Shown: positions 6,683-18,002 of the stretch, one piece after another | Layout of the letters: each line of letters begins with the position of its first letter | Numbering within the stretch: position 1 is the first letter of the stretch | Source: a virus | Reading direction: 5' to 3' (one strand) | IMG/VR virus record: IMGVR_UViG_3300023109_001138 | Span: 1-22,205 of that record | Length of the DNA: 22,205 nucleotides | Position numbers and translations under genes: made by a program | The notes under the pieces: model-generated | Told to the model about the DNA's origin: nothing | The model's input: only the letters and a program-made list of their open reading frames with translations | The model's database searches: none

Positions 6683-7066
6683 TTATTCCGTTTCTGTGAC
6701 TGCAGTCTCATAATAAAGAATTATTTCGCCTTGTTGCTTGATATATCGTCGCAGTTCGGCAATATTCAATGCAAGGTTCTCATAATCTTTCACTGAGAAC
6801 GCAACAAATGCACGGTTACCATTCACTTCCTCGAACTCTGCTAAGAAGTCTTCAATGTTATCTTCATTGACCACGTAGAGACGTGTGTCCGTTAGATTAA
6901 TCGGTTTGGGACGTGCTACTGTCGGAACTTGCGTCTTCTGTATCTCCGTTACCGTCACTACTTTCGGTTCTGGATTCCCTAGACTGCAACCAGTTAGGAA
7001 GAGGAGCATTACCGTTCCCACCAGTGTCTTGTTCCAATTCACGCCATAATTTTGCTGTCGCACCAT
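6683..7066 (-). CDS. o-spanin-like outer-membrane lipoprotein (Rz1 role)
   Basis: 127 residues with a short charged N-terminus, a hydrophobic stretch and the lipobox LTGC (Cys27), followed by Ser at +2, consistent with outer-membrane sorting. The mature part is Pro/Val/Thr rich at first, then a mixed region ending in RRYIKQQGEIILYYE. The gene starts inside the upstream i-spanin gene in another frame and overlaps it by 170 nt, an arrangement classic for Rz/Rz1 pairs. It would bridge to the inner-membrane partner and fuse the membranes in the last step of lysis. It is larger than lambda Rz1. A terminator follows. The functional call rests on topology and gene overlap, not on sequence identity. 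Confidence 0.75.
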   Translation of the reverse strand: MVRQQNYGVNWNKTLVGTVMLLFLTGCSLGNPEPKVVTVTEIQKTQVPTVARPKPINLTDTRLYVVNEDNIEDFLAEFEEVNGNRAFVAFSVKDYENLALNIAELRRYIKQQGEIILYYETAVTETE

Positions 7067-7388
7067 TCATAGATCCTTCAAGATCGGCAGGGTCTTTTAA
7101 AGCCCTTGCGGTTAAATTATGTCTTTGGAGTTTTAAACGAAGATTATCTCCGTACTGCTCTGCCTGTTGAAGATTACTTTGTAGACCTTGATTTAATTCA
7201 GTAAGTCTCTGTGTATCTTCTTGGAGAGTTTTGATGGATGCCTCTGCAGTCTGAACTGCAACTTCCATCTTTGCAACGTTAGCACGGGCGGTCTCCAAGT
7301 CTGATTGGAGTTGAGTTACATATAGGTAACCAACCCCGCCCGTAGCAAGTACTACAATTACTGCAGCGATTTTAATTGATGCAAACAT
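6897..7388 (-). CDS. i-spanin-like inner-membrane protein (Rz role)
   Basis: 163 residues. Residues about 5-25 form one N-terminal membrane anchor (IAAVIVVLATGGVGYLYV). Residues 27-95 are a Glu/Gln/Leu-rich coiled coil that would lie in the periplasm. LKDPADLEGSMNGATAKLW follows, then a Ser/Asp/Thr-rich C-terminal tail. This is the topology of an Rz i-spanin. The o-spanin-like lipoprotein gene begins within its 3' half in a different frame. The polar low-complexity tail is the part that overlaps the lipoprotein signal peptide, as expected when one frame is constrained. It sits 14 nt after the gp67-like gene. Confidence 0.75.
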   Translation of the reverse strand: MFASIKIAAVIVVLATGGVGYLYVTQLQSDLETARANVAKMEVAVQTAEASIKTLQEDTQRLTELNQGLQSNLQQAEQYGDNLRLKLQRHNLTARALKDPADLEGSMNGATAKLWRELEQDTGGNGNAPLPNWLQSRESRTESSDGNGDTEDASSDSSTSQTD

Positions 7389-9087: not shown

Positions 9088-9405
9088 TTAGCTATCCGCA
9101 ACTTTTGGATCTTCGTCTACTGTATCACCTGTTATACCCAAGTCACCTGCGTCTGCCGCAGTTACTTTCATTGCAATGAGTGATTCTGTCTTATGACGAG
9201 TGTTTCCATTTGCGTCTGTATAGGTGTGATACAAGTTCCAGCCTGGAGTCTTAAGACCCTTTGCTCTGTTTGATGCAACACCTGCTTCAGTTGTGTCAAC
9301 AAAGACGGCATTGTCTTTGTCATGTGATTTGTTAGGCTGTGCAGCCTCTGTTGAAAGATACTTAGGTGCGTCTGCCAGTGTATCTGTTTTTCCCCATTGT
9401 GCCAT
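9088..9405 (-). CDS. probable virion structural protein (105 aa)
   Basis: 105 residues, soluble. It begins MAQWGKTDTLADAPKYLS and contains SNRAKGLKTPGWNLYHTY near 46-63, then ESLIAMKV. This SNRAKGLKTPGWNLY pattern is shared, as I recall, with small structural proteins of T4-like marine phages. Its start shares one base with the stop of the 660-residue gene (TAATG), so both are probably co-expressed from the late promoter at 11427. The acidic C-terminus (GDTVDEDPKVADS) contains a V-D-E element like those in the upstream mosaic protein, but with Asp after it. Confidence 0.75.
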   Translation of the reverse strand: MAQWGKTDTLADAPKYLSTEAAQPNKSHDKDNAVFVDTTEAGVASNRAKGLKTPGWNLYHTYTDANGNTRHKTESLIAMKVTAADAGDLGITGDTVDEDPKVADS

Positions 9406-11387
9406 TATTCTTCTCCTGTGCTTTCGAATTCTTTATCGACAATTTTAGAAATTAGTTGTGATTTATCCATGTTCTTTGCTTTATCTATGTCATCGTCTCC
9501 GTAATGCTTTTGATAAAGTTTCATCAATTCCACTGGCGCTAATGTTTTAAGTTCATTATATCTATTTGCGACCTCATCAGATTTCTCTTCATTCTTGGAT
9601 GATTCACCAAGACGTTTACTGAGAGATCTTTTAAACTTCATTTTGAAAGAAGACTCTGTGAACTGTACAAGTGCAGAAACTGTAGCTTGTGTCTTAGGAT
9701 CAAGAACCGTCATACGTTCTTTACCCTTGGTAGAGTTCTTATAGTCTTTGTGAACCTTACGGAAGTCTTTCTTAGAGATGTGAACTTTACCGTTCTTGTA
9801 CTCATAGTTGTTCTTCTCTTCGATACCAGAGTCGTGATATCCCTTGCCATCGCAATGATCACATCCTTCGCCATCGCACTGAGGACACTCAGTCTTTTCT
9901 TCCATGCAAGAACCTTCGTGGACTTTACCACAGGACTCACATATCTTAGAGGCTTCTTCTAGTTCTTCTTTCTTCAACAACTTCATTGCAACGTTTGCAA
10001 GTTGAGTTGCTTTCATCTTATCCATCTTTGCTTTGTTCGCATCATTTACTTTACTGTAAATTTGCGTAATAGCAGATGCAGTAAACATGTCAACCAAAAC
10101 ACCATCGACTTTCATCGCTTGTTTCCTGTCAACAATTTGCATCATTGCATCAATAGTTTTAGATGCTTCATCAAGACGATAAGATTCACATTGGTATTCT
10201 GTACCTGCAAACATAAAGGATTTTTCACCTTTTTCTTTTGCCTGTTTAGCAGCGAGGATGAAACCACGCTTACCTTCCTCAACCTCTGCTTCAGTTGTAG
10301 TTGAAGTTGCGGTGTTGTTCTTATTACGTTTTGCGTCACGAAGTCTTTTCTTCGCATCCTGTTCACGTTTCCGTGCAATGTTCATACGTTCACGATCAGA
10401 AGCTTTCTTCTCTGCTTTTCTCGCACGTTGATCTGCGGCATCTGCACGACCTGCAGTAGACAGTCTCTTCTTGACTTTAATACCACCTCTTACAGCACCT
10501 ACTGCACCTTTACCTGCACCTCTGGCAACTGCACCAACACCTTTGGCGACACCTCTAATGGCACGTCCAATGAGTTCGTCTAGTTGTTCTTCGGTGAGAT
10601 CGTCGATATCAGTATCTCCGATCCATTCCATTATTGCATCAAGATCTACTTCAGAAGTCTCTTCACGCATACTGACATTAAACATCTTTGATGCTTTAGG
10701 AACACCAACTTGTTTTGCAACAATGTCGATAATCTTATCACGTACTTCTGTGTCTTGATCATTCGTAAACTTAACAAGTTTCTTTTCATCACCCTTGCGC
10801 ATCATTGCAGCGGCTTTGTTGAAATCTTTCTTGTCGATACCACCAGATTTACGTGCGTAAGACTCCATGTCTCTTGCGGCGTTATCCATGCCTTCTTCAA
10901 GTGAAACTGACTCGCCCATCGCCTTGCGTCTAATCATTCCGTGGAATGCATCATCTGCGGCAACTTGAGAACCTTTAAAGTCTAACTTAAAACGTTTTTC
11001 TTCAGGTGAACCAATTGCTTTCTTGTACAGTTTATCGAATTTCTTTTTCTCAGCGGCAGTCATGTCACGATCAAATTTATCTTTCTTTTCAGTAACAGCT
11101 ACCGCTTCAAGCTTTTTTGCAGAATTTTCCTTCGCCAATGCTTTACCAATCGCTTTACGGCGTTTGTGCAAATACTCGTCAGAACTGTCTGTATCGCCAT
11201 CGTTGTCGATATCTTTATCTTTACGATCTTTGAATTTCTTTGCTGCTGCTTTCGGATCTGCTTTATCCAGACCTTCACCATCATCGGACTTATTGTTCGA
11301 TGCATCTTCGGCAGTGATCTTTCTCTCTTCTAGTGTCTGTCGAACGAGATCACCGAAAAGACTATCGATTTTATCTTTGAAGTCCAT
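9405..11387 (-). CDS. 660-aa multi-module protein, candidate capsid-internal polyprotein
   Basis: Highly charged chain of unlike modules. Seen in order: helical N-terminus; an EF-hand-like acidic loop at 59-70 (DIDNDGDTDSSD); a Lys-rich segment; a helical module around 166-240; an acidic DxD/E stretch 247-271; a cationic Gly/Ala-rich stretch 272-310; a basic Arg/Lys/Ala coiled coil 311-358; a compact module 372-402 (KQAKEKGEKSFMFAGTEYQC); a helical module 408-472; a zinc-ribbon/DnaJ-like stretch with Cys at 483, 486, 494, 501, 504, 509 and 512; and a C-terminal helical module 605-650. Modules are separated by hydrophobic-X-E junctions followed by a small residue: LEE165-G, VEE371-G, LDE407-A and LEE478-A. 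IEE524-K is similar. This suggests prohead-protease processing. It has a late promoter upstream. No enzymatic function is recognised. Confidence 0.8.
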   Translation of the reverse strand: MDFKDKIDSLFGDLVRQTLEERKITAEDASNNKSDDGEGLDKADPKAAAKKFKDRKDKDIDNDGDTDSSDEYLHKRRKAIGKALAKENSAKKLEAVAVTEKKDKFDRDMTAAEKKKFDKLYKKAIGSPEEKRFKLDFKGSQVAADDAFHGMIRRKAMGESVSLEEGMDNAARDMESYARKSGGIDKKDFNKAAAMMRKGDEKKLVKFTNDQDTEVRDKIIDIVAKQVGVPKASKMFNVSMREETSEVDLDAIMEWIGDTDIDDLTEEQLDELIGRAIRGVAKGVGAVARGAGKGAVGAVRGGIKVKKRLSTAGRADAADQRARKAEKKASDRERMNIARKREQDAKKRLRDAKRNKNNTATSTTTEAEVEEGKRGFILAAKQAKEKGEKSFMFAGTEYQCESYRLDEASKTIDAMMQIVDRKQAMKVDGVLVDMFTASAITQIYSKVNDANKAKMDKMKATQLANVAMKLLKKEELEEASKICESCGKVHEGSCMEEKTECPQCDGEGCDHCDGKGYHDSGIEEKNNYEYKNGKVHISKKDFRKVHKDYKNSTKGKERMTVLDPKTQATVSALVQFTESSFKMKFKRSLSKRLGESSKNEEKSDEVANRYNELKTLAPVELMKLYQKHYGDDDIDKAKNMDKSQLISKIVDKEFESTGEE

Positions 11388-12372: not shown

Positions 12373-15300
12373 CTATTTTTTCTTTTTAAATCGAATATTC
12401 TTTGCGAACTTTTCGCCTGGTGTCATCGATGCGAACTTTTCAGTAGTTTCAGGAGTACCATATTCAGGGACACTCTCAGTCATACCACGTGCATCCTTCT
12501 GTGACTTGATCCATTTCTTCGCCATTGGTGACTTCGCAGGTATGTTAACCCACTTAGTAATGTCTTTATATGCACCAAGAGCACCATGTTCCCAATTCGA
12601 GTTATCTGAGTTATCGACAACAATCAACATGTTACCAAACAATCTTTGGAACTTACCAATATTGTCTTGTACTTCTTTCCACATTTTCGTAACTACTTTC
12701 GCACCCAATGTTCTTGGACGATCTTGATCACGTCTGATTGCAGTTTCTAAGTTAGTATTAACAAAGATCATGGCAACATCGTAACCAATTTTCTTCATGT
12801 CAACAACTTGTCCTGAAATCTTGTCGTAGTCTTTACCAGTACCATCAATCACCAAACCAAGACGACCAGCTAATGCCAACTCTTGTTGTTTCTTAGTCAT
12901 TGCTTTTGCTTTTGCACGTGCCGCTTGACCTTTTGGTGTGAAGATATCGTCAGGTGTCGCTTTCAGTCCAACTTTCTTCAACTGCTTTTCGAATGCAGGG
13001 TCTGAGTTAATTAGTTTCAAACCAAGTGCAGGTAATCCAGTTTTACCTACTAAGAATGACTTACCACTGCCTGGTCCACCTGCAAGGAACACCACTTTGA
13101 AGATACTTGGATCGTTTACACCTTCTTCAAGGTTTACGTCCTCACTGACTTTTTTTTTACCTGCGTCCATTACTTTTTTACCAAGTGGTGTCAAGTTACC
13201 TTTCTTGTCGTACATTTGGTCAATCAGTTTGAGTTCAGATTTAGTCAACTCTTCAAGTTCTTCTTTCTTTTCCCAAGGTGCTTTCTTCAAAGATACTTTT
13301 GCTTTACCTTTTTTAGATGATGCGGATGCCTTTGCAAGTTTCTTTGCAAGAGATGCTTTTTTGTTCTCTTCCAAGTCTTCGTTCTGTCTTCTTAGAACTG
13401 CGGCAACTTGTGGGTGACTAGACAAACCTTTTCTGATTTTGTCAATTACCTTCACGGCACCAGTCATGTTACCACCTGCATAACGTTTGTCAGATGCAAT
13501 ACCGATTGCCATTTTGATATCTTTTTTAGAAATACCTTCGTCTACAGTCTTTTCGTTCTTCTTGCGTTTCTTCATAACGTTTTGCGCAATAGAACCTGCA
13601 ACACCACCTGCAATCTTTGCAACAGTGCCACCACCAACTGCATGGGCAATACCTGCACCAGCTAATGCACCCAAGACACCTTCTTTGCGTAAACGTGGTT
13701 CACGACGATTGTCACTTGGGTCTTCCACACGTAGATTTTTAGGATCGTTGTTCAGTGGGTTGTTGTCTTTATGTCCAACATCCTTACCTGTAACATCAGT
13801 CGTTTTAGCCACAATTCTACGTGCACTGTTTCTTGATGAACGGTTAGCAATCTGTTCTGGTTTACTATGGTAGTTCTCATACTCTTTAGCGTAGTTGCGT
13901 TCGTCAAGTTCTACTTCTTCTCTGAAGATGCCTTTACGCTTCGCATCACCGATAGCCTTTGCCATCTGATCTCTCGACATACGCTTATACTTTGGCATAG
14001 ACATCAAGTAATCAATTGCATTGTGATCTTTCTTATTACCTTGCGACATATACTTTTCATAGTCCTTGATCAGGCTTTTGCTTTCATCAAGTTCAACAGA
14101 TTCTCTCTGGTTTGATCTGAATTTATATTTCTTGAAGAGAATGTCCAGAACGTCATCAATGAATTCTCTATCAGTTGCAAGACTTTTTTGCTTTGGTGAT
14201 TTGTTCAAAATACCTTTAATCACTGCAATTTGGTCATAACTGTCTGTATTTTTCTTATTACCTAATTTCTTAGCAACCATTTTTGCAACATCATCATCTG
14301 ACATTAACTTTGCTTCGTCAAGGTTTTCTTTCATCATTCTCTTCGCAAGTGCAATTGCCTTGCCAGGACCTTTTGCTTTGTTACCAGTCTCTTTTGATTG
14401 CGAGAACATATCCCAGACTTTACCACGATCAGTGTCATTTTTAGCCTGTTTCATGAATTTGTTTAGAATATCTGCACCCGCTTTGGATAATCTGTATTCA
14501 AGTTTATCATCGTAGCGTAGATTACCACCAACCATATAGTCTTGGTCACCTTTGTACTGCCATTTTCCTCTACCTGCAACCTCATCAAGAGACTCACCCA
14601 TCATGTTAGAGATTTTATTGTCCAAGTCACCGAATGCTTTCATTGTGTCTCTCTCAGATACACCAGCTTTTTCTAGATCGTTTTTCAACATCTCCATTGC
14701 TGCCATGCGGTTCTTCTCTTGTACACGGTCATTCTTACCTTTACTTGTTTTAGTAAAGAATTTAAGTGCTGAATCTAATGCTTTCTTCATCTTCGCATTC
14801 TCTACGAGATCTTGATGAACAGTTTCTTCAAACATAGCGTCAAATGATTCGTCTGTTTTCTTCTTACTTGACATAGCATCTCTCGCTTTGTTTACTGCAT
14901 GACCTGCAACTTTACCTGCAACATATCCTGCGGCAGCACCTGCGGCGGCTTTACCTACCTTTTTAACTGCTGCTTTCGCAACTCTCTTCATTACTTTCTT
15001 TGCGATGAATGCACCTGCCGCACCACCTGCGACCTTTGCAAGACCACCAAGAACTGGTGCGATCTCATCTACCTGTTTGTCATCACGTAGAGAGGCAAGA
15101 GAACGTTGAGTGGATGTCATTGTGCGAACTGGTTTCTTACGACCTGTCTTAGTACGACCCATTGCTTTGTTATGTTCTGCATCTTTTGCACGTTGAATTG
15201 CAACAGAGTCACCAGTCATCTTTGGTGCGCCTTTACGTCTAGGTCTTGGTGCTTCATCCATTTGTACGTCTTCCTTATACATGTTTAACTCGTATTTTTT

Positions 15301-16944
15301 GTTGTCCATGTTATAAACTTGGATCTGTACTGCCTTTTTACCAGACTTATCTGTTAGACGGTATGAGTTTGTTTTACCTTTAGAGGGTTTGCGTGGACCT
15401 GTTGCAACTTTGTCATCAATCTCACTAGGATCGATTTCAATTTTCAACTTATCTTTCGCATGTTTGTATGCGTGTTGCATTGCAGTCGAGAAATCTTTGT
15501 GATACAATTCGTATCCAGTAGATGATTTACCTTCATTCATTTCTTCATTCCTTACTTTCTTTGCAAGATCTGCATCTGCTTTGCCCCATGTCCCAGATGA
15601 TTTTGTGGTGAACGAGTTAACTCGTGCAAGTCCCCACTGTGTTGCAGTAGTGCCTGGACGGTGTCCAGTTCTCCATGCGGCAACACCACGATCAAATACT
15701 TTTTTAAGAACACCAAGAGGCATTCCAGACTTATCTGCTTTCTTTTTCAATGCTTCACCTGAATCTTCTTCAATTGCATCTACTGTAGATTCCATTAAGT
15801 CATAAATGTCGAACGTCAAGTCGTCAAGACTCTCTTTAAGAGGTTTCTCGTCATCACTCAACTCTGGTTTCTTCTTAAACATTTTGAAACGACCATCAAA
15901 CTTAACACCTTGATTACCAGCTTTCAACAACATGTGTGGTCTCTTACGTGCTACCATGTCTGCACGAGATGCCTCATCCATAGTTGAGAACTCTTCGTAC
16001 TTGATTACCTTAGAAGGTGTTTTGAAATCTTTTTTTCTCATGATTGTTTTATTAACGAGTTCAATCTCGTCACCCTTAGTTTTAATTACAACTGGTAAGT
16101 TTAGATCAGACGAAAGATCTTTAAGGACTGCTTCGATCCCTTTGTTGTCTTTAACATCTTTAGCTTTATTCTTTTGGATTTTCTTGAACAACTTCTGAAG
16201 TTCTGCAACCTTGATATCGGGAGAGTTTCTTTTGTCATTCATTCTATCAACGAAGTGTTTAGTAAACTCCACGTCGATTTTGAATTTGCCAAGAATACGA
16301 TCTGCAAATTTCTCTAGATCATTAATCTGTTTTTGCGATACATCTTCGTTTACACAGTTAGGAACCATCTTGTTCCCTTTTTTCTTCATACCAACCTGTT
16401 TGTACCCATTCCAACAAGGATCTTCCTCTTGTACCATCTTCACCAGTTCTCTACCGTTCACACCTGCATACGTACGTGCGACCTGTGCGGCATAGTAACC
16501 AATGTCATGTTTTGGGTTTTTCTTTTTACGATCCCAGACTTTCTGTAAAGTCATTGCGGCATGTTTCATGTTGCCTTTAAGGTCTTCTTTCTTTAAAGAC
16601 TTACCTTCTTTATCGTATCCAGGCTTTCCTGCTTTCTCTTTCTTAGAGATTGCAATCGCTGCTTGTTGCGCAGGGTTTGCACCACCTTCGCCGTACATCT
16701 GTTTGAATTTCTTTGTATGTGAGGATGGTTTTGTTTTTGTGTCTTTGTCACCAGGCGCAGGTTTATATGCTTTGGGATCATCGTCAGACATCTTTGCTTG
16801 TCGTGCAAACTGCTTTGCACGTTTCTCTTTATCGTCTTTATCGACACCAGAATAATACTTTGATGGCTGAGTGCCAGGCAACTCATCCACGTCTCTATCC
16901 TGTGAGACTTTCATTTTTTCGTTGACGAATTTAGTAAATCGCAT
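12373..16944 (-). CDS. 1523-aa mosaic protein, candidate capsid-internal polyprotein with kinase and HNH-like modules
   Basis: Lys/Asp/Glu-rich chain of many compact modules. It begins MRFTKFVNE, similar to T4 capsid-targeting leaders. Seen in order: helical module 126-171; Cys module 177-197 (DPCWNGYKQVGMKKKG); module 225-318 (FTKHFVDRMNDKRNSP); short module 330-360; a module 405-465 (HRPGTTATQWGLARVNSF), possibly Pfam DUF5824; basic module 565-612; Gly/Ala-rich cationic stretch 628-690; helical modules 716-785, 790-875, 878-948 and 955-1010; HNH-like module 1016-1085; second Gly/Ala-rich stretch 1088-1124; modules 1137-1188 (KRYAGGNMTGAVKVIDKI) and 1233-1262. Last comes a P-loop kinase 1280-1480 (GGPGSGKS 1289-1296, D1315, IDGTG 1366-1370, RRDQDRPR 1404-1411). 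Junctions such as MDE324-A, MNE471-G, MDE564-A, LDE788-V, LDE877-A, LDE954-S, VDE1136-G and LEE1274-G resemble gp21 protease sites. Confidence 0.85.
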   Translation of the reverse strand: MRFTKFVNEKMKVSQDRDVDELPGTQPSKYYSGVDKDDKEKRAKQFARQAKMSDDDPKAYKPAPGDKDTKTKPSSHTKKFKQMYGEGGANPAQQAAIAISKKEKAGKPGYDKEGKSLKKEDLKGNMKHAAMTLQKVWDRKKKNPKHDIGYYAAQVARTYAGVNGRELVKMVQEEDPCWNGYKQVGMKKKGNKMVPNCVNEDVSQKQINDLEKFADRILGKFKIDVEFTKHFVDRMNDKRNSPDIKVAELQKLFKKIQKNKAKDVKDNKGIEAVLKDLSSDLNLPVVIKTKGDEIELVNKTIMRKKDFKTPSKVIKYEEFSTMDEASRADMVARKRPHMLLKAGNQGVKFDGRFKMFKKKPELSDDEKPLKESLDDLTFDIYDLMESTVDAIEEDSGEALKKKADKSGMPLGVLKKVFDRGVAAWRTGHRPGTTATQWGLARVNSFTTKSSGTWGKADADLAKKVRNEEMNEGKSSTGYELYHKDFSTAMQHAYKHAKDKLKIEIDPSEIDDKVATGPRKPSKGKTNSYRLTDKSGKKAVQIQVYNMDNKKYELNMYKEDVQMDEAPRPRRKGAPKMTGDSVAIQRAKDAEHNKAMGRTKTGRKKPVRTMTSTQRSLASLRDDKQVDEIAPVLGGLAKVAGGAAGAFIAKKVMKRVAKAAVKKVGKAAAGAAAGYVAGKVAGHAVNKARDAMSSKKKTDESFDAMFEETVHQDLVENAKMKKALDSALKFFTKTSKGKNDRVQEKNRMAAMEMLKNDLEKAGVSERDTMKAFGDLDNKISNMMGESLDEVAGRGKWQYKGDQDYMVGGNLRYDDKLEYRLSKAGADILNKFMKQAKNDTDRGKVWDMFSQSKETGNKAKGPGKAIALAKRMMKENLDEAKLMSDDDVAKMVAKKLGNKKNTDSYDQIAVIKGILNKSPKQKSLATDREFIDDVLDILFKKYKFRSNQRESVELDESKSLIKDYEKYMSQGNKKDHNAIDYLMSMPKYKRMSRDQMAKAIGDAKRKGIFREEVELDERNYAKEYENYHSKPEQIANRSSRNSARRIVAKTTDVTGKDVGHKDNNPLNNDPKNLRVEDPSDNRREPRLRKEGVLGALAGAGIAHAVGGGTVAKIAGGVAGSIAQNVMKKRKKNEKTVDEGISKKDIKMAIGIASDKRYAGGNMTGAVKVIDKIRKGLSSHPQVAAVLRRQNEDLEENKKASLAKKLAKASASSKKGKAKVSLKKAPWEKKEELEELTKSELKLIDQMYDKKGNLTPLGKKVMDAGKKKVSEDVNLEEGVNDPSIFKVVFLAGGPGSGKSFLVGKTGLPALGLKLINSDPAFEKQLKKVGLKATPDDIFTPKGQAARAKAKAMTKKQQELALAGRLGLVIDGTGKDYDKISGQVVDMKKIGYDVAMIFVNTNLETAIRRDQDRPRTLGAKVVTKMWKEVQDNIGKFQRLFGNMLIVVDNSDNSNWEHGALGAYKDITKWVNIPAKSPMAKKWIKSQKDARGMTESVPEYGTPETTEKFASMTPGEKFAKNIRFKKKK

Positions 16945-16952
16945 ATTAGTAC

Positions 16953-18002
16953 CTATTGATCAGCGGGTCTTTTGTTATTTCTTGATTTAATACGATCTGT
17001 CTCACGCTTCTTGATAGTTGGAATAAGACGTTTAGAAATTGCCTTAACACGTGATGGAGAGATCTTTGCGAGACGTTTATCAATTGCCTGTCTTTGACCA
17101 TAGGACATAGTTTTGTAGTCCATACCCTTAGTCAACTTCTTTTTGAGAAGGTTTCTTGCACCCTTATGCGCACGTTTTTTCAACGTATCTAAAGTTGCAC
17201 GTTTTCTTGCAGATCTTTCACGACCTTTTTTAATCTTGTGTTTAATTCGTTTAAACATACGAGAACGTGCCACTCTTTGTTGTCGTGTCAACGCTTCTTC
17301 TAGTTCTTCCTTAAGGTTCTTCTGAACCAACTGCATCATCTTTTTCTTATCTGCGTCTGATAACTTAGATGCAGCGGCACTTTTGAAACCGAATTGTTTC
17401 TTACCCTTCTCATCTGTATAGTCGTCAAACTGTCCCTTTTGGGCAATACCTCTTAGTTTTGTACCTGACATTCCTTCAACACCTTCTGCATCAGCATCAC
17501 GCTCACCTGCAGATACAACTTTGATCTCTGCAAAGTTATATTCTTTACCGTTGTATTTGTCTAGGATTGTTTTGAACTCTGTTACACGATCAGAACCAAC
17601 GACCATGACGATCTTCTTGTATCCTGATGATTCGAGTTCTGCAGCGATTTGGAAAACCTGTTTCGCTTTAGAGTTGATCATGACAGAACCGAATGCCTTT
17701 CTGGCAAACCGATACTTGTCTTTATAACTTAGTGGATCTTTTTTGTTGTTCTGAGTATGAGAAAGATAGACACGTGCTTCTGCCTTTTCTTTCTTCGCAA
17801 CTTCTTTTACTTTGTTCACAAGTTTTTCGTGACCAATAGTAACAGGGTTCATGCGACCAAAAGAGAACACAACAGTATCGCTCTTAGCTTCTTTGAGAGT
17901 CGGTTCCAACTCAACAAAAGTGGAAGGATCAAACTCTTTGAATTTGACAAGATCCCGCTTCTTTTTGTTTTTATCTTTTTCTACTTCGGTCAGATCAGCC
18001 AT
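16953..18002 (-). CDS. nucleotidyltransferase (HIGH-type) with basic C-terminal module
   Basis: 349 residues. Core about 40-225 is a cytidylyltransferase/NMN-adenylyltransferase-like Rossmann domain: FSFGRMNPVTIGH at 46-58 holds the T-x-G-H nucleotide motif, MVVGSDR at 133-139, and MSGTKLR at 178-184 is the second NTP-binding motif. Substrate is unknown; NAD or lipid-precursor activation are options. Residues 237-340 are a very basic Arg/Lys-rich helical module (TRQQRVARSRMFKRIKHKIK) that could bind DNA. The core is bracketed by LKE38-A and LEE236-A, both fitting the T4 prohead-protease rule, so the first 38 residues may be a removable head-targeting piece. TATAAATA lies 32 nt upstream. It precedes the 1523-residue gene by 8 nt. 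Confidence 0.85.
   Translation of the reverse strand: MADLTEVEKDKNKKKRDLVKFKEFDPSTFVELEPTLKEAKSDTVVFSFGRMNPVTIGHEKLVNKVKEVAKKEKAEARVYLSHTQNNKKDPLSYKDKYRFARKAFGSVMINSKAKQVFQIAAELESSGYKKIVMVVGSDRVTEFKTILDKYNGKEYNFAEIKVVSAGERDADAEGVEGMSGTKLRGIAQKGQFDDYTDEKGKKQFGFKSAAASKLSDADKKKMMQLVQKNLKEELEEALTRQQRVARSRMFKRIKHKIKKGRERSARKRATLDTLKKRAHKGARNLLKKKLTKGMDYKTMSYGQRQAIDKRLAKISPSRVKAISKRLIPTIKKRETDRIKSRNNKRPADQ

Follow-up and report, generated by a model that had tools for sequence, protein, structure and literature searches.

A giant modular protein of an uncultivated T4-like virus is a candidate head-cargo polyprotein with prohead-protease-like junctions

The internal proteins of phage T4 carry a capsid-targeting sequence (CTS), in which residues 4 and 7 determine targeting and residues 8 and 10 determine processing (PMC9026906). 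In the T4 record, ipII and ipIII start MKTYQEFIAE↓A (here and below, the arrow follows the Glu at a known or predicted cut). The phiKZ/SPN3US head ejection proteins are cut at A/S-X-E by the proteases gp175/gp245 (PMC10052503, PMC9026906). Polyvalent proteins, in turn, have been likened to polyproteins, and their processing was proposed to rely chiefly on embedded peptidases of the zincin or assemblin-like kind, which are common but not universal (PMC5512222).

The DNA analyzed here, referred to as the window, is the entire contig of an uncultivated virus, a fragment of 22 kb. Genes that it has in common with a matching Kyanoviridae region (e.g. in Pelagibacter phage HTVC008M and Methylophilales phage Melnitz) encode ribonucleotide reductase, primase and a cytidylyltransferase-like protein. 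The window contains an ORF on the minus strand with an ATG start (12373-16944), encoding a protein of 1523 aa and 169.8 kDa, P0001, for which a pI of 9.7 and a Lys content of 16% were computed from the translation. Re-reading of this translation showed that the ORF, the N-terminus MRFTKFVNE and all 12 Glu positions that the initial annotation had proposed as cut sites were correct. The modularity that it had described was borne out as well, as the matches of individual P0001 stretches fall in distinct genes of HTVC008M, Melnitz, C48C1 and phiM12. The single chain combines domains of unlike biochemical kind, namely a kinase, DUF5824, a weak HNH-like stretch and further modules, all with separate relatives, and no peptidase family in Pfam or PHROGs matched it. 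From 80 related loci of viral contigs we collected 117 non-redundant proteins with modules of P0001 or of its two modular neighbors. Module order varies widely among them, and P0001 is the longest; other marine T4-like phages have its modules as well, either reordered or as separate genes. The features of P0001 are as follows.

12373-16944, minus strand: P0001, modular protein of 1523 aa (ORF and translation; module matches to separate phage genes)
16918-16944, minus strand: leader MRFTKFVNE, residues 1-9, predicted cut after E9 (E↓K), resembling the T4 CTS
16345-16425, minus strand: short Cys module DPCWNGYKQVGMKKKGNKMVPNC, residues 174-200, recurring in C48C1, Melnitz and cyanophages
16000-16344, minus strand: module after E200, residues 201-315
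15766-15972, minus strand: KRPHM module after E324, residues 325-393
15532-15765, minus strand: DUF5824 module after E393, residues 394-471 (PF19141, E=1.4e-17)
15253-15531, minus strand: module after E471, residues 472-564, matching Melnitz gene 20
14824-15252, minus strand: residues 565-707, a basic stretch after E564 and a Gly/Ala-rich basic stretch after E627, read from the sequence
13900-14823, minus strand: four small modules, basic or neutral, at residues 708-1015, with motif-predicted borders E788, E877, E954 and E1015 and few homologues
13537-13899, minus strand: residues 1016-1136, an HNH-like stretch (PF13392, phrog_4578) and a Gly-rich stretch
13123-13536, minus strand: residues 1137-1274, a module after E1136 and two short basic linkers ending at E1232 and E1274
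12376-13122, minus strand: P-loop kinase module, residues 1275-1523, following E1274 (matches to AAA_33 and Zeta_toxin exceed the cut-off)

The module at residues 472-564 shares 73% identity with a Melnitz gene 20 segment that itself comes after MDE↓A, and the E1136 junction, TVDE↓GISKKDIKMAIG, has the Melnitz counterpart ELDE↓GYSPKEIKMAIG. The HNH-like stretch scored 17.5 bits with PF13392, under the cut-off of 24.8 for this family, and matched the HNH family phrog_4578 with E=3.5e-4. An RNase-like fold was suspected for residues 201-315 and is unsupported, the model (pLDDT 60) being too poor to use. The Gly/Ala-rich basic stretches (window 15063-14824 and 13665-13540) have a glycine-zipper-like look and might touch membranes.

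The kinase module matched PF13671 (AAA_33) and PF06414 (Zeta_toxin) and contains the Walker A sequence GGPGSGKS. In its predicted structure (pLDDT 84), the part ahead of the predicted cut (residues 1-11) is disordered, and the fold begins after the junction. Polynucleotide kinase and zeta toxin were its best fold matches, together with further P-loop kinases; at 13-21% identity, these matches do not choose between a UDP-sugar, a nucleic acid 5'-OH or another substrate. A genome scan for cellular relatives of the kinase, intended as a control lacking a prohead protease, gave three matches only, all in assemblies from metagenomes whose contigs may be of phage origin.

The N-terminus of P0001 had been likened to the T4 targeting leader, and this likeness held. 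Although MRFTKFVNE, at 9 aa, is one residue shorter than the T4 leader, it is in register when counted from the Glu, with aromatic residues at CTS positions 4 and 7, a hydrophobic residue at 8 and E at 10. Genes encoding the kinase module by itself start similarly, with MKSFKTFLDE↓G, MLRFKTFINE↓G or MVTFKSYITE↓G, and with MKTFAELQE↓G in Melnitz. A strict leader pattern was found in 16/106 module-bearing ORFs (0.22 expected) and in 35/844 neighboring ORFs (1.4 expected). Genome-wide, a leader profile gave 11 hits in Melnitz, where 2.1 were expected and the shuffle maximum was 7. No genome-wide excess was seen in HTVC008M, with 4 profile hits vs 2.1 expected and 1 strict match vs 0.31; the leader excess is not general to every relative.

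Other Melnitz proteins start in a related manner. A RimK-like ATP-grasp protein (PF08443; locus L092, 82-1131) has the CTS-like start MTQKFSQFITE↓E, and a DUF6267 protein (PF19782; L092, 13272-14528) starts MLTLINFSKYITE↓D. Among the fetched loci, ORFs of 402-418 aa with a DUF6267-family look carry the strict leaders MENFANFITE↓Q and MHDFTEFLTE↓A. By its sequence, the DUF6267 protein is a candidate head protein.

The predicted junctions of P0001 read TMDE↓A (E324), EMNE↓G (E471), QMDE↓A (E564), QVDE↓I (E627), SLDE↓V (E788), NLDE↓A (E877), ELDE↓S (E954), ELDE↓R (E1015), TVDE↓G (E1136), DLEE↓N (E1193), ELEE↓L (E1232) and NLEE↓G (E1274). The initial annotation had expected such motifs to exceed their frequency in shuffled sequence. 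Against shuffles of P0001 itself, this failed for plain [LI]-x-E, which was not enriched (11 vs 9.1), and succeeded for the form with an acidic middle residue: [LIVMF][DE]E occurred 14 times vs 2.9 (P<0.0004) and [LIVMF][DE]E[AGS] 6 times vs 0.7. However, the reversed motif E[DE][LIVMF] was likewise enriched (10 vs 2.9). The linkers are acidic, which raises the motif in both directions and explains part of the signal within the single protein. Thus, single-protein shuffles are too weak a test, since the reversed motif is enriched too, and the test must come from relatives.

Across a non-redundant set of 67 related proteins, the frequency of [LIVMF][DEN]E[AGS] was 3.9-fold that in shuffled sequence and of its reverse 1.7-fold, as compared to 1.6-fold and 1.1-fold, respectively, in a set of 222 further large ORFs from these contigs. 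Before the kinase module, [LIVF]-x-E occupied exactly P3-P1 in 27/28 upstream-divergent contexts, counted such that residues P14-P4 were mutually ≤50% identical; these included 16/16 N-terminal leaders of stand-alone genes and 11/12 internal junctions. At other offsets in the same kinase sequences, the background was 18/209 (8.6%). The corresponding binomial probability of ~1e-26 treats contexts as independent. It makes no correction for a module edge derived from a common ancestor and overstates the strength of the result: even with dissimilar upstream sequences, this edge may be inherited. Inheritance of the domain edge could partly account for the Glu-Gly conserved in front of the kinase. 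In the Agrobacterium jumbo phage Atu_ph07, the protein around the kinase is dissimilar, yet EVTE↓G again precedes the module.

For DUF5824, the motif was located 3-8 residues upstream of the anchor in 32/33 contexts, as compared to 3/33 for the reversed motif, and for the KRPHM module it lay within a looser span, 7-14 residues upstream of the KRPH anchor, in 19/22 contexts. The exact motif position was kept directly before the 201-315 module in 11/17 upstream-divergent contexts, and in only 5/13 and 6/12 contexts for the modules after E1136 and E471, respectively. The claim that hydrophobic-X-Glu marks module borders in homologues was confirmed, far above background, for the two modules with many homologues, the kinase and DUF5824, and proved weaker for the modules after E1136 and E471. 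Residues 565-707 had 1-4 distinct homologous contexts, and the junctions at 627, 707, 788, 877, 954 and 1015 had just 1-3 each; several junctions with few homologues are predictions from the motif. A looser test on alignment borders in the 117 proteins placed the motif near borders at 0.52 vs 0.33 by chance, with 0.50 vs 0.34 for the reversed motif, and was discarded because equal enrichment of the reverse left it without discrimination.

The protease predicted to cut at these sites is of the T4 gp21 type. By annotation or sequence match, we found a Peptidase_S77 (prohead protease) gene of this type in 5/5 reference phages (HTVC008M, Melnitz, Atu_ph07, phiM12 and C48C1) and in 7/10 contig fragments that carry related proteins. 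No gp21-type protease gene was found within the 22-kb window.

Two genes near that of P0001 carry similar junctions:

16953-18002, minus strand: P0003, upstream gene, 349 aa, cytidylyltransferase-like (PF01467, phrog_3041)
9405-11387, minus strand: P0002, second modular protein, 660 aa (motif enrichment; module matches)

P0003 contains LKE↓AKSD and LEE↓ALTR. In P0002, [LIVMF][DE]E occurred 8 times vs 2.5 in shuffled sequence, and its stretches match separate genes in Melnitz, C48C1 and HTVC008M. Relatives of neighboring genes, including two homologues of P0003, have been detected in purified virions. The cytidylyltransferase T4-GC190 was identified by mass spectrometry in S-SM1 virions (PMC3037559); it starts MKKFSAFLNE↓A, a leader conserved in 10/10 distinct N-termini from 36 loci of its family. 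In S-CREM2 virions, mass spectrometry detected gp154, gp155, gp156 and gp160, and gp157-159 are absent from the portion of the virion-protein table consulted (PMC10665884). The four detected proteins gp154, gp155, gp156 and gp160 bear leaders or internal motifs. S-CREM2 gp154 is a cytidylyltransferase that starts MKNFSSFLTE↓A, and gp160 is a modular protein of 297 aa with NLEE↓K and EISE↓G junctions. The short Cys module of P0001 lies in a weak match to the virion-detected gp160 (residues 152-204, E 1.6e-4 in an eight-sequence database), and gp160 matched the modules of Melnitz gene 18 with 1.9e-8. The virion-detected proteins are relatives of P0001's neighbors and of one module, not of the whole P0001.

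Several further proteins at these loci were noted. S-CREM2 gp156 (locus L293, 3513-4226), among the proteins detected in the part of the virion table consulted, starts MKKLISE↓L; inspected by eye, its GG...SDIDLH stretch resembles that of nucleotidyltransferases. Atu_ph07 gp53 (locus L288, 2254-4590) and gp54 (758-2230) start MKWNDLNE↓A and MRWEQLNE↓N, respectively; besides the kinase after EVTE↓G, gp53 of this jumbo phage has two repeats, after NLTE↓LFDT and NLNE↓LFDT, in a similar architecture. In the window, a Staphylococcal-nuclease-like protein (PF00565) is encoded directly downstream of P0001 (11772-12203), and overlapping ORFs at 6683-7388 on the minus strand encode proteins of 163 aa, with an N-terminal hydrophobic stretch, and 127 aa, with LTGCSL. 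As judged from their sequences, this pair looks like an inner and an outer spanin.

We propose that P0001 is probably a phage-head cargo polyprotein that is cut by a gp21-type prohead protease and whose pieces stay with the DNA and are injected. The N-terminal leader would bring the protein into the prohead core, as the CTS does for the T4 internal proteins, and we judge packaging in the head to be very likely. The phage's own Peptidase_S77 protease would then cleave after hydrophobic-X-Glu at the module borders; cutting at several junctions appears likely. With the initial annotation, we infer that 10 or more small proteins would result. Some 12-16 pieces with masses of ~4-36 kDa would arise, most of them basic and rich in lysine; one would be a P-loop kinase of ~24-27 kDa. 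At least some of the pieces would remain with the packaged DNA and then enter the host, a step toward which our judgement leans slightly. We further propose that modules swap between a leader-bearing single gene and a slot in a polyprotein because the same cut frees both.

Injected proteins with several domains have been described, some of which enter the head without being cut (PMC5512222). P0001 might similarly be a polyvalent protein without processing, packed and injected whole as one long chain, like the N4 virion RNA polymerase, with its linkers as flexible joints; the enrichment of the motif in both directions by acidic linkers is consistent with this. However, a mere joint fails to explain that the same tripeptide closes the leader of the stand-alone module in all 16 cases, and the DUF5824 border seldom carries the reversed motif, so that we consider an uncut chain unlikely. 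It is also conceivable that P0001 is a core or scaffold-like protein, packed into the prohead and cut many times, with most fragments leaving before DNA packaging. T4 gp21 cuts gp22, gp67 and gp68 into many fragments that mostly leave the head (PMC9026906). This possibility seems quite improbable, as P0001 is basic and lysine-rich, it holds a folded kinase and other conserved modules that have stand-alone genes of their own, and its relatives encode a separate gp22-type scaffold. In addition, relatives with such modules are present in mature virions, according to the part of the S-CREM2 data consulted (PMC10665884).

The location of homologous genes between replication and nucleotide-metabolism genes would also fit an unpackaged protein of the infected cell, with accessory enzymes as modules and a motif that reflects composition, and the virion data cover relatives of the neighbors and of one module. 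The leader and junction statistics argue against such a protein, as do the leader-bearing neighbors found in virions of two related phages (PMC3037559 and the consulted part of PMC10665884), and we regard it as very improbable. That leader-bearing relatives are present in virions is taken from the literature; leader similarity, modularity, the border motif and the gp21-type gene in relatives were observed here. A head-cargo polyprotein processed by the prohead protease is the reading that we favor.

The T4 internal proteins and the polyvalent proteins are each known on their own, and a head polyprotein cut by a prohead protease would unite both; we found no prior description of one in the open-licence literature. 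If this is true, abundant ocean phages could deliver many proteins from one gene, and a leader together with hydrophobic-X-Glu borders would provide a sequence rule for spotting head cargo among unnamed genes. We give about an even chance to the broader proposal that, in marine T4-like phages and Atu_ph07, modules flanked by protease sites travel either as a leader-bearing gene or as a bead in a polyprotein, one gene delivering a dozen or more proteins.

Like T4 IPI, IPII and IPIII (PMC3012670, PMC9026906), P0001 is lysine-rich and has a short leader ending in hydrophobic-X-Glu, and the genomes of its relatives encode an S77 protease. In contrast to the T4 internal proteins, each a small protein of one domain that loses its leader in a single cut, P0001 strings together at least a dozen modules, and a candidate cut separates each from the next. 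The T4 protein Alt is a head-packed, injected enzyme that is trimmed by gp21 at both ends (PMC5694885), and P0001 is predicted to resemble it in packaging and processing; however, Alt is one enzyme with two cuts, whereas P0001 is a series of modules. The head proteins of the myoviruses phiKZ and SPN3US, which the prohead protease cleaves after X-Glu, in some cases more than once, parallel the scheme predicted for P0001, but their multiple cuts strip long propeptides, whereas those in P0001 would release a series of modules. With the polyvalent proteins (Iyer et al. 2017, PMC5512222), P0001 shares many unlike domains in a single polypeptide and predicted entry into the host with the DNA. Unlike most of them, it has no matched peptidase domain, and its candidate sites fit a separate prohead protease.
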